Shown here in pieces: positions 3,295 through 27,977 of a DNA stretch of 34,623 nucleotides. Within the stretch, counting starts at the first letter, position 1, and each line of letters opens with the position of its first letter. The stretch is from the IMG/VR virus record IMGVR_UViG_3300043464_000171, positions 1 through 34,623 of that record; one strand, given 5' to 3'. The notes below the pieces were generated by a model, which worked only from the letters and a program-made list of their open reading frames with translations, was not told where the DNA came from and did not search any database. A program made the position numbers and the translations under genes. The stretch comes from a virus.

Positions 3295-6200
3295 TTATTC
3301 CACAATTTCTCTAGGTTTCTTGAGGTAATTGCTCTTTGCCAGCTCTTCATTCAAGATGATCTGATTTGATACTTCTGGGTATTTCATCCTAAAAGCATCA
3401 GATTTGTAAGCGGCGGTTTTAAAGTCAGACATGGTTCTGCTTAAATCTGACAACACCCCAGCATAAGCCATGCGTTGCATTTGGGCTGCGTTGTCAATAT
3501 CGGTTAAAACAGATGCCACTTCCAGCTTAAATGTTTTGCCATTGATCGTGACCTTATTCATGATGTCCAATAGATCCGAATACTCAGCATCGTTTAGCTT
3601 AATGTTGTTAACAACTCGGTCTGGTTTATTTAAAGCATTTTTACCAGTTGCCTTTGAAATATCAAGCAAAGTCTTTTCTATGTTGTCAAGATCGTCCTCT
3701 TTGCGGTAGAAAGGTGCCACCCAATACAATGGCCCAATTTCCCCAACTTGAACCTCTTCACCCCATATGTTTCGCGTTGGGGCTTGTGACTCGCTAAGGA
3801 TTGGTGTTTTTGACAACCAGTTTCTGAACATAAAGTCAAACTCTCTGTGGCCATGTGGCAGCCCTGGGTCTGGGGTTACATTCCTCTTGGTGGGATCAAG
3901 GGTTGTTTCAATTTGACGAATCAAAGAACCAGCTGGCGTTGGGATTGGGATCACACCGCCTGGGAAGTTCTGGGATATACCACCAAAAAATTTATTAGCA
4001 GACGCTGACGCTCTTTCGCCAGTTGGGTCTCGTTTAATTTCTTCAATAAGGCTGACAAAGTTAGACATGCCAGACATAAATGGTAGTTCGCTAATGTACT
4101 TAAATGGCAACAGTGCAGAATAAAGCAGCAGATCTGTCCACTCGCTGTCCTCTTCTTTTCCATAGACAGAGCCAATCTCAGCAAGGGTTGCGGCCATTGC
4201 AATCAAACCACCAAATGGCTCTAGTCCAGCATAACTGATTCGCTTGTCACCAACCTTTATAGAGAAAGGCTGCCAGCCAGTTGTTTCTCTTAAAAACTCT
4301 CTGCGCTTTGGATCGGTTGGGCCAGCACCGCTAATCGTGCCATCAAGCGCCATGTTGTACATCAAGCCCATAAACGATGAGCCCATTGCTATTTTACCCA
4401 TGGCCATCTGACGGCGCGCACCGCCAGCTGCCAGTTCATCCCTGACATCTTTCATTAATGGGGCAAATGGAGTTCTCTTAAATAACTCGACTTCCATATT
4501 AACGATGGTTTTAACGAATGGAATTAAAACAGTTCCAACAGGCAAAACATCGTTTAATTTATTTCTGGCCTCTAGCGCAAAGTTACCAAAGCTGCCCATG
4601 TCAGATTGCAATGTGGCGTTTTTAACAGCGTCATCAACCTTTTTCAAAATTGCCTGGTCTGGGTTAATGATTTGCATAACCATGCCATCGATGGCAGTTT
4701 TCTCATCCACCCCATTCTCAATGGCCATAAGCGCCTGGCGAGCTGCCAGTCGGCGGGTTTCCATTTGAGCGACAACAGCCTTGCTTACCTCGTCACCAGC
4801 CATCATTGCCCTAAACGGTAGGCGTATAGCCTTTCCAATGTAGTCAACCGCCTGGGCTACAGGGCTTTCTGGGTTTTGAAACAGGCGAGACGATAACGCT
4901 GGTGTAGGCGTTTTATCAATGTCTTTGCCAGCATATACTGGGGCATCCTCAACAAACGCCTTTAAACCCGATTTTAAGCCGTTTGGGAGGGCATAAAAGA
5001 AGTTGGCCATCTCTATGACGGCCTCGCTTATATACAGCTTGTCAGACGATTGTGAGCCAAACATTTTTGTTACTGGGATGTCTATCGCTTTGCCAATGGT
5101 TGCCCCAAATGTTGTGTCCAAAGATCTGCCAATGGACATAATCATATTGGCGTATAGGTTTCGCTCAATAGTGGCTGGGCTATACATAATCGATGAGACA
5201 TACATCTCTTTCCAGATGTCTTTAAGGTTTTCTGTGGTGCTGCCAGCCATCTGCACAAAGCGGCCTTTTTCTTCAATGCTAAGTTTTTCATACGCCATGG
5301 CCAGCTGCTTTAGTGTTGCTCTGCCGCCACTTTCGTTTAATAGGGTTGTTATTGCTGTTGGATCGCTAACCCCAACCGTACCATCAACTGGCAGCCTAAA
5401 CGAGCGCAGCGCCCTGGCCGCCTCGGTTTGAGCTGCTTTTAACTTCATCTGAATTGCTGAGTGGGTGGACAGATGGTTTCTGAACTCAAGCAATAAAGCG
5501 TCATCCTCTTTGTTTGGCCCAAGGTTTTTAATTTGGTTTGCCAAATCGTCTAAACGCTTTGATGACTTAACCAGCAAATGACGCGCTGCAACAAGCTGTT
5601 CTGCATTAAATGTTTGACCTACATTTGCCTGTAGTATTTCTGGCAGAATATTAATTCTTGTGGCCAGATCATTGACAACATCGTCTGACAGAACGCCGCG
5701 TTTTGCAACATCAATTTCAGATGCGTACATTCTGCTAACTTGATCGATTGCCCGATCAATGTCAGTAGAATCTTGAATATAGTTAAAGTTAAAATCAATG
5801 CCAACGGCTGGCACTTCTTTGCCATTAATAAAAGTATCTACTTCGTCCATTGTTGCCGTTTTAATAACCAGGCTATTGTCTGGCATAACGGTGGCTGGAG
5901 CGCCTAAATCGCCATCTGCTTTAACGGTAATTGGCGCTTCTGTAACTGGGGCTGGCTCAACAGGAGCTGGCTCAAGTATCTCTTTTTTTTGATCTCTTTT
6001 TTTGGTCTGCTGAAATACACCAGGTTGTTTAATTGTTTCTGTTTTTGTGGCAGACTTGACAACCTCTTCCCTAGCTTTTTCTGCTACCTTTGTGTCAACT
6101 TCTTTTGCAAGCTCTTCTGTTTTCTTAAATGTTTTTTTAATAATCTGGCCAGCGGTGCCAAGCAAACTAGCAACTTGTACTGGTTCTGGCAATGGCTCCT

Positions 6201-23906: not shown

Positions 23907-24330
23907 GCTTTTCCTCCTTTGATTCGACATCCTCGATTTCTGGGGCTTTAATGTTGATTCCAATCACTGACGGTTTGGAGCTGTCATCCTCTGGGCCATC
24001 TAGCAATCCAGACGCTTTGGCCAGCAAGCGCAGCACGCCAACCTTGTCGTACAGCTCCAGCTCCAGCTCGCCATTTTTGTTGACCTTGATCGATTTGATG
24101 GCTTGCAAGGCATGGTCTGGAATCTGGGAACTAGGCTTGATCTTGACTTGCCCCTCATCATCCCAGCTCATGATGTCAGTCAGCTTTGTATTGGCCATGC
24201 AAAGCAGCGTATAGGCCACCGCCTCGCGGTTCTCCATGATCGTGGCAGAGCGCTCTAGCCTACGCTGAATGGATCGCACACCACCCCAGTTTTTAACGCT
24301 GGGCATTTGCCTGGAAAGTTTACTGGCCAT
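23899..24330 (-). CDS. terS: probable terminase small subunit-like protein
   Basis: This 143-residue protein has a central and C-terminal region LTDIMSWDDEGQVKIKPSSQ, IPDHALQAIKSIKVNKNGEL and LELYDKVGVLRLLAKASGLL. It closely follows the pattern of the second half of small terminase subunits, with Asp-x-x-Gly-x-x, 'aIksik', a beta hairpin, and a DK-x-x-xL-x-xL-x-x-x-xGL helix. The N-terminal part is basic and helical and could bind DNA. It would recognise phage DNA for packaging. It is separated from terL by 2 kb and lies in the early operon, which is unusual. The start overlaps the upstream stop (TGATG). Confidence 0.65.
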   Translation of the reverse strand: MASKLSRQMPSVKNWGGVRSIQRRLERSATIMENREAVAYTLLCMANTKLTDIMSWDDEGQVKIKPSSQIPDHALQAIKSIKVNKNGELELELYDKVGVLRLLAKASGLLDGPEDDSSKPSVIGINIKAPEIEDVESKEEKHD

Positions 24331-24593
24331 CAGAACGGCACATCCGAATCGGTGCTGGGCTGGTGAATCGGCGCACTCGCACGCTCTGGGGTATACGCAT
24401 GCCCATTCTTGGGGTTACCAATCTTGCCAGACAAGTAGGCCTTGCCATTGCTGCTAACCTTGTTCCAGGCATCAAAGTAATGCTCGGTACCGTTACTGAG
24501 CTTAATCGTACCCTTCCAGTCTGGATGCGTATCTTTCTCTTTCTTATCGTTTGGCCACAGTGAAAAGTAACCAGGTTTTTGTTCGTATGCCAT
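24330..24593 (-). CDS. SSB-like small protein with acidic C-terminal tip
   Basis: This 87-residue protein contains KKEKDTHPDWKGTIKLSNGT, EHYFDAWNKVSSNGKAYLSG and KIGNP, a compact beta pattern of the OB-like kind also seen in DUF736-like proteins. It ends in STDSDVPF, which resembles the conserved acidic-aromatic tip (DDDIPF) of bacterial single-stranded DNA-binding proteins that recruits partners. It may therefore bind ssDNA during phage replication or recombination. The fold assignment is inference. Confidence 0.6.
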   Translation of the reverse strand: MAYEQKPGYFSLWPNDKKEKDTHPDWKGTIKLSNGTEHYFDAWNKVSSNGKAYLSGKIGNPKNGHAYTPERASAPIHQPSTDSDVPF

Positions 24594-24784: not shown

Positions 24785-25019
24785 GGAAATCTCCTTTTAA
24801 AAAAAGTGGGGAAAAATTGAGGGGGACACCCCACGCGATAGCCCAAGGGTGGGGGGGCAAGGGGGTCTGTTTGCGAAACCGACAGCCCCCATCTAACGCA
24901 CCAGACTCGCACCATCTGCTGGCCTGGTGATTTTGTACAGAACCCATACGCTCGTATGAGTTTTGTACAGAACTCTTTAAACGCTCTGTATTCGATTTGT
25001 AGTGTGTCTGGCTACCCAT
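24753..25019 (-). CDS. uncertain 88-residue frame over the repeat/G-rich region
   Basis: The ATG at 25019 has AAGGA five bases upstream, and the first ~40 codons look plausible (MGSQTHYKSNTERLKSS, SVQN twice). The second half crosses a C-rich tract on the coding strand and reads as Pro/Phe/Gly-rich peptide unlike its neighbours, then overlaps the next gene. A 7-codon frame with a better site (AGGAG, ATG at 25035, MGKDKHG) overlaps its start. It may be a real small gene, a decayed one or non-coding. I favour partly non-coding. Confidence 0.35.
   Translation of the reverse strand: MGSQTHYKSNTERLKSSVQNSYERMGSVQNHQASRWCESGALDGGCRFRKQTPLPPHPWAIAWGVPLNFSPLFLKGDFHGSRCQREVA
24847..24865 (+). other. 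G-quadruplex motif
   Basis: GGGTGGGGGGGCAAGGGGG on the plus strand gives four G-triplets with loops of 1, 1 and 3. Further G/C runs (GGGGGACACCCC near 24821) flank it. It is exceptional in this AT-leaning genome and lies downstream of the initiator-like gene, between it and the SSB-like gene. Confidence 0.6.
24931..24975. repeat. iteron-like direct repeats flanking a palindrome
   Basis: TTTTGTACAGAAC occurs at 24931-24943 and 24961-24973, exactly 30 bp apart. Between them lies CATACG-CT-CGTATG (24945-24958), a 6-bp inverted repeat with a 2-base gap. Three-helical-turn spacing with a central palindrome resembles an operator or iteron site. It is 92 bp past the end of the initiator-like gene. 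Confidence 0.6.
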
Positions 25020-25066: not shown

Positions 25067-26098
25067 TTAAACGGTATGCAATACCTTCAGAAGAGTGTCT
25101 CTGAAGTATCCGATGCGATGAGGTGGGTCTCGCCTCTGGTTTGCAAAGGTCTGAACTGTGTCAGTGACCACATCTGTCCACAGCTGCTCAGTCAGACCAG
25201 CATCAACCAACTCTTCCATCACTTTCAAATCTTGTTCATTCATCGTTCGTTCAACTTTACATGTTGACCAAACTAATTCTTTATAAACTTTTATTAATTT
25301 ATTACTTAACTGTTTATTAACTTCTTTACTAGTTACTAACCTATTTGTTAAAAACTGTGTTCTGTCTACACCGATGTTGACAATGGAGTCAACCTGGGTG
25401 TTGACAATGTGAGCAGTGGAATTGGAGTTATCCACAGAGTTATCCACAGGTTTGGATGACTTATCCACAGCCTTTTTTCTCCTTGTTACACGCTCTTGTT
25501 GGGCGCGAATGACATCCTTAGTCTGCTTAACTGCCAGGGTGTCAGTCTCCTTTGGAGTGGTATCAATCTTCATTACATCGGGTCTGGTCATGCTCTTCAT
25601 TGCCTCCTTGTATTGCTGGTTTAACTGTTGTCGGGTTGCCTCATCCATTTCTTTTTTCTCCTGTCTGACCATGTGAGGCGGCCTGGTGTCCTCAATCGCA
25701 CTGGTGATCGACACTGCATCCTCGGCGCTCAATGTCTTATCAAACACCACTCGGATGGTGTCAGCTCTTTGGCCTCTAAATCCTTTCTTCATTACCTCGA
25801 TATGGCCACGCTCTTTAAGCAGCAGAATCTGACGATTGACTGCTTGCTTGCTGACCTTCAGATCAGCTGCCAGTTTGCGTTGTCCAACCCAAGTAATGCC
25901 AGCTCGGTTGCAGTACGCGCAAAGCATCCCTAAGACGCGTATAGAGCTGTGTGTCAGCTCTTTGTCCTGGATCGCAGCCAACGGTATCACGCAGAACTTT
26001 CTTAGGTCTGGTGGCGCGTCTTTCTGGATTAGTTTTGGCTTACGCTTTGGCAGCGTAAAAGGCACAATGTTGTCGATTGGTTTCAATAGCGCGCTCAT
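25067..26098 (-). CDS. winged-helix replication initiator-like protein
   Basis: This 343-residue protein has at residues about 45-120 a winged helix (LTHSSIRVLGMLCAYCNRAG, VGQRKLAADLKVSKQAVNRQ, ILLLKERGHIEVMKKGFRG), as in phage O/RepA-type initiators and helix-turn-helix regulators of plasmids. The middle (about 130-230) is charged and disordered and includes VD/VN-containing tetrapeptide repeats encoded by the candidate origin. The C-terminal helices end HRIGYFRDTLLKVLHTV. There is no helicase or primase motif. It would bind its own gene's repeats and load the host replisome. A transcription regulator is the alternative. Confidence 0.7.
   Translation of the reverse strand: MSALLKPIDNIVPFTLPKRKPKLIQKDAPPDLRKFCVIPLAAIQDKELTHSSIRVLGMLCAYCNRAGITWVGQRKLAADLKVSKQAVNRQILLLKERGHIEVMKKGFRGQRADTIRVVFDKTLSAEDAVSITSAIEDTRPPHMVRQEKKEMDEATRQQLNQQYKEAMKSMTRPDVMKIDTTPKETDTLAVKQTKDVIRAQQERVTRRKKAVDKSSKPVDNSVDNSNSTAHIVNTQVDSIVNIGVDRTQFLTNRLVTSKEVNKQLSNKLIKVYKELVWSTCKVERTMNEQDLKVMEELVDAGLTEQLWTDVVTDTVQTFANQRRDPPHRIGYFRDTLLKVLHTV
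25262..25470. other. candidate replication origin inside the initiator gene
   Basis: Three perfect DnaA boxes TTATCCACA lie at 25428-25436, 25440-25448 and 25461-25469. Beside them are GTTGAC (25376), GTCAAC (25388) and GTTGAC (25400) elements on a 12-bp period, with TGTTGACAATG repeated at 25375 and 25399. Then comes a stretch of almost only A and T (about 25270-25370, with TTTATTAA motifs). Boxes, repeats and an unwinding element inside the initiator gene mirror lambda ori in gene O. Confidence 0.65.
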
Positions 26099-26099
26099 G

Positions 26100-26288
26100 T
26101 CAGTCTGGCAAGATGTCTCGTTGCTTTACTCTGGCGTTGATGAGCTTGCGAGCTTTGGTCAATGCCTTGCGCTCTACTTGGAGCACAGCGGCCTTGCTTA
26201 CACCCAATTTGTCTGCCACCTCCTGAGCTGTCATTACGGTCATCTCTTTCTTTACTTTGTCTTTGTAATGCTGTGGTAATTTCTTCAC
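26100..26288 (-). CDS. small HTH protein resembling sigma70 region 4
   Basis: This 62-residue protein starts at GTG 26288, overlapping the upstream stop (GTGA). Residues about 19-50 read MTAQEVADKLGVSKAAVLQV, ERKALTKARKLI, which follows the region-4 pattern of sigma factors (sxxEVAxxLGVSxxxVxQxExxALxKxRK) that contacts the -35 element. There is no region 2, so it is not a complete sigma factor. It could redirect host RNA polymerase or repress phage promoters. It precedes the initiator gene by one base. Confidence 0.7.
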   Translation of the reverse strand: MKKLPQHYKDKVKKEMTVMTAQEVADKLGVSKAAVLQVERKALTKARKLINARVKQRDILPD

Positions 26289-26428
26289 TTAACTGCCATC
26301 CATAGTCCGATATTGCTAAACGCATACCCGCTATATACGACTGCCATAGAGGTATTCCCTTTTGTTCCCTGTTCAATGGCCACATAGCCATAGATCAAGC
26401 CTGTCAAAATAATCAACCAACTGCTCAT
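26285..26428 (-). CDS. 47-residue membrane protein
   Basis: The frame from ATG 26428 reads MSSWLIILTGLIYGYVAIEQ, GTKGNTSMAVVYSGYAFSNI, GLWMAVK, stop at 26285. There are two hydrophobic segments (residues 4-17 and about 28-45), so one or two membrane spans. It overlaps the upstream stop (ATGA) and the next start (GTGA), the same tight coupling as its neighbours, which argues that it is translated. The function is unknown. Confidence 0.65.
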   Translation of the reverse strand: MSSWLIILTGLIYGYVAIEQGTKGNTSMAVVYSGYAFSNIGLWMAVK

Positions 26429-27320: not shown

Positions 27321-27977
27321 ATGTACATAGCCTACTACCGCGTATCAACAGATCGTCAAGGCCAGTCAGGCCTTGGCCTTGAGGCACAACAAGCAGCTGT
27401 CAAGCAGTACGCTGACAGCATTGTCCACAGTTTTACCGAGATCGAGTCTGGCAAAGACAACAACCGCCCACAGTTGGCAGCTGCAATTGCTATGTGTAAA
27501 TCTACTGGCGCAGCTCTGCTAATTGCCAAGATCGATCGTCTCTCACGCCAGGCAGCATTCTTGTTGACTTTGCGCGACTCTGGCGTGCAGATCGTGGCCG
27601 CTGACATGCCACACGCTGGCACCCTGGAGTTTGGCATTCGCGCTGTGGTTGCACAACATGAGCGTGAAGAGATCAGCAAACGCACTAAAGCGGCCTTGGC
27701 TGCTGCCAAAGCTCGCGGCACTGTCTTGGGTAGTCCTAACCCAGAAAAAGGCTCTAAGGCTGGTTTAAAGGCCATCAATGACCGTTGTGATGCTTATGTC
27801 AAGAAAGTCGCACCGATCTTGCAAGATATTGTCAGCCTGGTTGGCACTAACTTGCGCCACATTGCAGCAGAGCTGGAGTTTCGGGGCGTTAAAACGGCCA
27901 GGGGCAATACATCCTGGTACCCAAGCCAAGTATCTAACCTCATCAACAGATTGGAGAGACAACATGAAAGCATTTAA
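27321..27977 (+). CDS. small serine recombinase (resolvase/invertase family)
   Basis: This 218-residue protein has the catalytic domain at residues 1-135: YYRVSTDRQ with nucleophile Ser9 and Arg7, then AKIDRLSR with conserved Asp/Arg, and a long E-helix (GIRAVVAQHEREEISKRTKAA). After AAKARG a C-terminal DNA-binding region follows (LRHIAAELEFRGVKTARG, WYPSQVSNLI). The size is that of resolvases/invertases, without the long C-terminal region of large phage serine integrases. It could resolve multimers, invert DNA or integrate. AGGAG lies 5 bases before ATG 27321. Confidence 0.92.
   Translation: MYIAYYRVSTDRQGQSGLGLEAQQAAVKQYADSIVHSFTEIESGKDNNRPQLAAAIAMCKSTGAALLIAKIDRLSRQAAFLLTLRDSGVQIVAADMPHAGTLEFGIRAVVAQHEREEISKRTKAALAAAKARGTVLGSPNPEKGSKAGLKAINDRCDAYVKKVAPILQDIVSLVGTNLRHIAAELEFRGVKTARGNTSWYPSQVSNLINRLERQHESI

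Follow-up and report, generated by a model that had tools for sequence, protein, structure and literature searches.

A putative replication origin with iterons and DnaA boxes inside the initiator gene of a podovirus-type phage

The initiator gene and its surroundings

The window, i.e. the whole stretch of DNA analysed here, is a virus record of 34,623 bases (IMGVR_UViG_3300043464_000171, positions 1 to 34,623). It contains podovirus-type structural genes (head-tail connector, tail, and internal virion proteins), which fit the earlier assignment of this DNA to a podophage. The window also encodes RecE- and RecT-like genes, and genes for RusA and a single-strand DNA-binding protein are found close to the replication initiator gene, rep (the latter, a neighbour of rep at 24330..24593 on the minus strand, matches phrog_18154 with E 9e-8). 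A scan of 30 window proteins turned up no polymerase, helicase or primase. The isolated OM43 phage MEP301 reportedly has no DNA polymerase either and relies on its host to replicate (PMC8024684). Amid the early genes of the window is one for a short serine recombinase of 218 aa with a resolvase/invertase domain (27321-27977); MEP301 also has a resolvase-domain protein, and the phage of the window is apparently non-integrating.

The rep ORF (25067..26098, minus strand) encodes a protein of 343 aa with a match to HTH_36 (E 6e-7) and a mean AlphaFold pLDDT of 82.5; the protein consists of a winged-helix N-terminal domain, a long linker, and a small helical C-terminal domain. The winged-helix DNA-binding domain covers residues 47-122 (25733..25960, minus strand), with HTH_36 at residues 47-100 and matches at the level of structure. 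HTH_36 (PF13730) scores 29.6 bits in the window protein, above the gathering cut-off of 25, and is matched at E below 1 in all 66 relatives scanned. PHROG profiles for replication initiation or O-like proteins match the window protein and 64-66 of these 66 relatives, weakly and consistently (E 1e-4 to 1e-10 for the 'O-like' profiles). Only HTH_36 passes the Pfam cut-off, and Phage_rep_O (PF04492) does not; the initiator would work like lambda O, though it is not classed as Phage_rep_O. RepA_N (PF06970) is absent from the Pfam matches listed for the window protein and its relatives, and the structural similarity of the winged helix to the RepA_N initiators 4pql, 4pt7 and 5kbj (Z 7.3-8.2, 87 residues aligned) is tied with that to unrelated winged helices.

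The recognition helix in the predicted structure comprises residues 84-96 (25811..25849, minus strand), of which residues 84, 88 and 89 track the iteron core (see below). A linker predicted to be disordered follows at residues 219-255 (25334..25444, minus strand; pLDDT under 50 at residues 219-221, 223-248 and 250-255 of the AlphaFold model), and the iterons and the closest DnaA box sites lie in its coding DNA. The C-terminal domain (residues 258-342; 25073..25327, minus strand) is made up of four helices and reaches a pLDDT of 91 when predicted alone. Since fold searches gave no confident match for this domain (weak AAA+ lid-like matches, Z at most 6.1), its role is given here as a presumption, namely that it contacts the host replisome.

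A small ORF (26095-26391) overlaps the start of rep and looks like a short helix-turn-helix protein; it has no Pfam or PHROG matches, and a counterpart is found at the same place in the relative L002 (4793-4999). Directly downstream of rep, TTTTGTACAGAAC and CGTTCGTATG-like repeats are found in the window (24925-24990) and in L002 (about 6065-6140), possibly as an operator or promoter element.

DnaA boxes, iterons and AT-rich DNA within rep

Three exact copies of the DnaA box TTATCCACA were found by motif scan on the plus strand, at 25428-25436, 25440-25448 and 25461-25469. They span 42 bp, with start-to-start steps of 12 and 21, just as an earlier note on this DNA had described them; the note had seen no further box, and a count of both strands found no other TTATNCACA in the 34.6 kb. 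The number of boxes in the window is by itself unremarkable (1.9 expected), and their evidential weight comes from clustering and family conservation, not from number. TTATCCACA is the perfect DnaA-box consensus, which may differ from the preference of the phage's own host.

Next to the boxes are iteron cores on the 12-bp period that had been noticed before: GTTGAC at 25400..25405, GTCAAC (inverted relative to its neighbours) at 25388..25393, and GTTGAC at 25376..25381, all given for the plus strand. A possible degenerate iteron, GTCTAC (25364..25369, plus strand; repeat family D3, from reading the sequence), keeps the same 12-bp phase, and a distal GTTGAC core (25263..25268, plus strand) lies on the far side of an AT-rich stretch, where many relatives have a distal copy too. 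Four GTYRAC sites within 150 bp have p = 0.004 under random placement.

The AT-rich stretch (25270..25353), a probable unwinding element according to nearest-neighbour stability, is found at the same place in relatives. The earlier description of about 100 bp of nearly pure AT was right about the stretch and overstated its purity, as the 50 bp from 25270 onward have 12% GC and positions 25272-25355 are 82% AT. In the duplex-stability check this DNA ranked first as the least stable 50-, 80- and 100-bp segment of the window; the GC-skew check along the window gave no clear turning point or origin signal at the locus. Boxes, repeats and AT-rich DNA all fall within the winged-helix initiator ORF (25067-26098, minus strand), largely in the predicted disordered linker, so that this part of the earlier reading stands, and the translation gives the tetrapeptides it had listed (VDKS, VDNS, VDNS, VNTQ and VDSI). 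According to the structure model, the putative origin sits where the gene encodes the disordered linker and the first part of the C-terminal domain.

Conservation in related initiator genes

Relatives were collected by alignment-based scans, which yielded 317 initiator genes, or 85 after dereplication; the motif search on them used a looser pattern, as a stricter one missed some genes. In the annotated collections, MEP301 was the sole phage relative, and the plasmid collection contained none. MEP301 is the closest isolated relative (38% identity) and has a short protein without the linker and without boxes. The genome contigs searched gave a single weak match, in a Chloroflexi MAG contig, and therefore no evidence for a prophage form.

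The layout seen in the window recurs across this family. The locus-wide stability minimum (50 bp) lies inside the initiator gene in 80 of the 85 loci (interquartile offsets 715-748). Genes carry on average 5.4 copies of the iteron core, with three or more copies in 82/85, and neighbouring copies are mostly 10-12 bp apart and occur in both orientations. As judged from these alignments, a putative origin embedded in the initiator gene is conserved across relatives. Two close relatives (52% identity) keep one box and the 12-bp-spaced GTCAAC repeats, and in both of them the repeats sit in another codon frame (HSQLHSQP vs IVNTQVDS in the window); here the amino acids appear to have changed while the DNA motif stayed.

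Perfect boxes number 40 and are found in 36 of the 85 dereplicated genes; with the pattern TTRTCCACA there are 61 boxes in 52 genes. The remaining 33/85 initiator genes have no TTATCCACA or TTGTCCACA box, therefore boxes are common and not obligatory, and DnaA may be dispensable or may act through weaker sites. The initiator iterons would be the near-universal element of the family, and the DnaA boxes a frequent second component (52/85). All 40 perfect boxes fall at gene offset nt 593-725. Boxes are rare elsewhere, as the earlier note had implied (5 in the 487 kb that flank the relatives' genes, and none in the window outside the cluster of three).

To obtain a null expectation, synonymous codons were shuffled or resampled with the protein fixed (200 trials per method). 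This gave about 3-4 perfect boxes (highest trial: 9) as compared to the 40 observed, a roughly 13-fold excess over synonymous shuffles, which supports the earlier suggestion that the linker is shaped by constraint at the DNA level. The earlier note had also considered that relatives might keep the tetrapeptides with codons that destroy the boxes. This is not the rule: of the 97 instances of VD[NK] in the linker, 38 are encoded as a perfect box, vs 1 of 32 in the control ORFs (other ORFs on these contigs).

Selection on the peptide linker (VDN-type repeats), and not on the DNA, could be invoked for the repeats, given that 38 of the 40 boxes are in one reading frame, giving VDN or VDK. However, the other box frames give a stop codon or Trp-Ile, so this frame bias would need no peptide function, and the excess of boxes over synonymous shuffles is measured with the peptide held constant. 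Moreover, 38 boxes are oriented like those of the window and 2 are opposite; the latter, in two dereplicated relatives, encode V-I-H, i.e. different residues, and the peptides encoded by the iterons are wholly different (VNTQ, HSQP, HRQP, IGHS) with a constant DNA layout. A peptide-driven origin of the repeats was rejected on the synonymous-codon null and the VD[NK] codon usage, and we consider this explanation extremely improbable.

Within a putative origin the boxes may be secondary, with the initiator opening the DNA alone like lambda O and DnaA only modulating; boxes are absent in those 33/85 relatives while iterons are nearly universal, and lambda O has no box within one mismatch. Where boxes are present, however, they are under strong codon-level constraint, they match the consensus perfectly, and 7 of the 9 pairs of neighbouring boxes keep a 12-bp step. 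We regard a secondary role as rather unlikely.

Coupling of the recognition helix and the iteron type

Four types of iteron core are found among the 85 genes (ACAACC, GCAACC, GTCAAC and GGACAC), and the type goes with a few residues of the recognition helix. The helix follows the pattern [ST]-X1-Q-x-[VI]-X2-X3-[QH], X1, X2 and X3 standing for residues 84, 88 and 89 in the window protein. Gln at X1 is found with ACAACC in 38 of 38 genes, Arg mostly with GCAACC, and Lys mostly with GTCAAC, and Arg combined with Asn at X3 is found with GGACAC; this rule fits 78/85 genes. In an unbiased scan of 297 alignment columns, residues 84 and 88 had the highest mutual information with iteron type outside the linker that codes for the putative origin. 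A given iteron core falls in different codon frames depending on the relative. As the GTTGAC repeats covary with the recognition helix, they are the likely binding sites of the initiator.

A tree that leaves out the helix columns has at least 16 changes of iteron type, a number of independent switches that is approximate because the tree has few columns and many weak forks. A tree-based sign test gave 3 to 0 on starred branches, with too few well-supported switches for significance, so disjoint-pair counts with controls were used. Of the 11 non-overlapping pairs with unlike iteron types, 8 have a helix difference too, either at X1 or in Asn at X3 (in two of the three exceptions the iteron type was tied or nearly tied), and same-type control pairs differ in the helix in 1.4 of 25. 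Some close pairs show dips of identity at the helix codons and at the iterons, with the ~250 bp between them more alike: this intervening DNA is 82-98% identical in L010/L045 and 83-95% identical in L075/L067, and the pair L320/L147 is a weaker case (60-82%). Such paired dips in the alignments are the pattern expected if the helix reads the iterons.

A proposed origin and its relation to known systems

Taken together, the comparison of relatives points to DNA-level constraint on the boxes, a conserved layout, a conserved stability minimum, and coupling of helix and iterons. They support the reading of the earlier note, in which the initiator gene contains a replication origin with DnaA boxes. 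We think it very probable, from sequence comparison, that the locus is a phage replication origin inside the initiator gene, with Rep and DnaA sites, onto which the host replisome is loaded. The hallmarks of an iteron-type theta origin are present (phased repeats, adjoining DnaA boxes, and an AT-rich element), the DnaA-box hallmark being found in the window and not in every relative. In the proposed mechanism, the winged-helix domain would bind the 12-bp-spaced GTTGAC iterons through its recognition helix, and host DnaA would bind the adjoining TTATCCACA boxes. Rep and DnaA would then jointly open the adjacent AT-rich stretch, where melting would come first, followed by loading of the host helicase and polymerase, which is proposed because neither of these enzymes nor a primase was seen among the phage proteins scanned; the C-terminal domain would probably make the contact with the host replisome. 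Binding, opening and helicase loading are inferred here from the anatomy of the locus and from the systems described in PMC4980987 and PMC7466680.

Bound by Rep and DnaA, the segment could instead serve the control of expression, through autoregulation of rep or as a DnaA-controlled roadblock. DnaA and plasmid initiators are known transcription regulators that act from such sites, and the sites here are inside a gene. They are, however, ~600 bp into that gene, together with the strongest melting site of the locus in 80/85 relatives. Their layout is also that of the iteron origins of RK2, P1, F and pSC101 (PMC4980987) and, minus the boxes, that of lambda ori in gene O (PMC7466680), and we consider control of expression in place of an origin improbable.

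Lambda ori in gene O had been named as the precedent, and the precedent holds: the origin is in the middle of the initiator gene, with iterons and AT-rich DNA. In lambdoid phages (lambda and Stx phages), ori lies within gene O, with initiator-bound iterons and an adjacent AT-rich region, and extra iterons show up as extra residues of O (PMC7466680). The lambda record annotates iterons within gene O, and the window shares this placement in the initiator gene. The lambda iterons are 18-bp sites at steps of about 20-24 bp, whereas the window family has short cores mostly 10-12 bp apart, and the window gene has three perfect boxes, unlike lambda O. In addition, the N-terminal domain of the window protein matches HTH_36 and not Phage_rep_O, and no separate P-like loader was seen.

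The origins P1 oriR, F, RK2 and pSC101 lie outside the initiator coding sequence. They have the same components as the window, which has all of them inside the coding sequence. In these iteron plasmid origins, DnaA boxes, iterons and AT-rich DNA are found side by side (PMC4980987). The winged-helix N-terminus of RepA_N initiators (pSK41) binds Rep boxes located in the middle of the gene, where the linker is encoded, and their C-terminal domain contacts the host (PMC5703833); the Rep boxes are placed like the iterons of the window, which is from a phage, whereas RepA_N initiators are from plasmids. The chimeric initiator of pPR9 joins a PF13730 (HTH_36) domain and origin to a RepA_N-type C-terminal domain, the N-terminal domain having been exchanged together with the origin (PMC5703833), and HTH_36 is the N-terminal family of the window protein as well. 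DnaA boxes were not found in staphylococcal plasmids (PMC5703833). In the RepA/ori system of Vibrio cholerae PLE, the DNA-binding domain varies together with the iterons, and several swaps have taken place, probably driven by a phage nuclease that attacks the origin (PMC8263062). These swaps involve whole domains, and the PLE origin occupies a noncoding region of its own, whereas in the window family the covariation can be traced to a few helix residues within one gene.

An origin in the initiator gene, covariation of DNA-binding domain and iterons, and boxes beside iterons are thus each known separately. What appears to be new is their combination in one coding sequence, along with covariation from residue to base across a large natural family. 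The literature search gave no account of DnaA boxes within the initiator gene of a phage; it covered subscription journals thinly and is not proof of novelty.

Embedded boxes beyond this family

With a DNA-only scan of viral sequences for two boxes 12 bp apart (TTATCCACA-NNN-TTATCCACA), we found at least 120 viral stretches (L342-L461), and most of those listed are outside long ORFs; this suggests further phage origins or DnaA-binding elements. Three cases lie in initiator-type genes, each with two or three boxes spaced 12 bp apart and, after these, repeats of its own and AT-rich DNA: L355 has three boxes in a Phage_rep_O gene, then GGTAAC...GTTACC repeats and AT-rich DNA, and L375 and L362 have paired boxes in HTH_36-type genes (L362 being below the Pfam cut-off). 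Judging by these sequences, embedded boxes next to iteron-like repeats do not seem confined to the family of the window.

Origins of uncultured phages are hardly ever mapped, and here the sequence would not only place one but also name the likely binding proteins and predict the residue that reads each iteron. The family amounts to a natural experiment, in which an initiator and all copies of its site would change specificity together inside one ORF. More broadly, these genes may represent a widespread uncultured lineage whose replication specificity is held in one gene and repeatedly reprogrammed, with helix residues setting the iteron, the copies switching together, and embedded boxes as a general device, a picture for and against which we find the balance about equal. 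If it is true, Gln/Arg/Lys at residue 84, Ala/Ser, Thr or Asn/Ser at residue 88, and Lys/Arg or Asn at residue 89 would pick among the four iterons, and about five iteron copies in the linker of the same gene would switch in concert, perhaps avoiding cross-replication or origin-targeting by competing phages and parasites. In that case, boxes embedded in initiator genes would be a device used generally by phages dependent on the host replisome, a reading based on their presence also in a Phage_rep_O gene and in other HTH_36-type genes. The findings also suggest that host DnaA may be enlisted directly by phages that lack a helicase or polymerase of their own.

Some of the at least 120 paired-box stretches encode recurrent short peptides (e.g. 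SYPQTYPQ). The putative origin DNA of the window also has a weak match to non-coding DNA in large Klebsiella phages of the Demerecviridae (L463, AmPh_EK80, 5891-5943), a match that is likely caused by the TTATCCACA repeats there.
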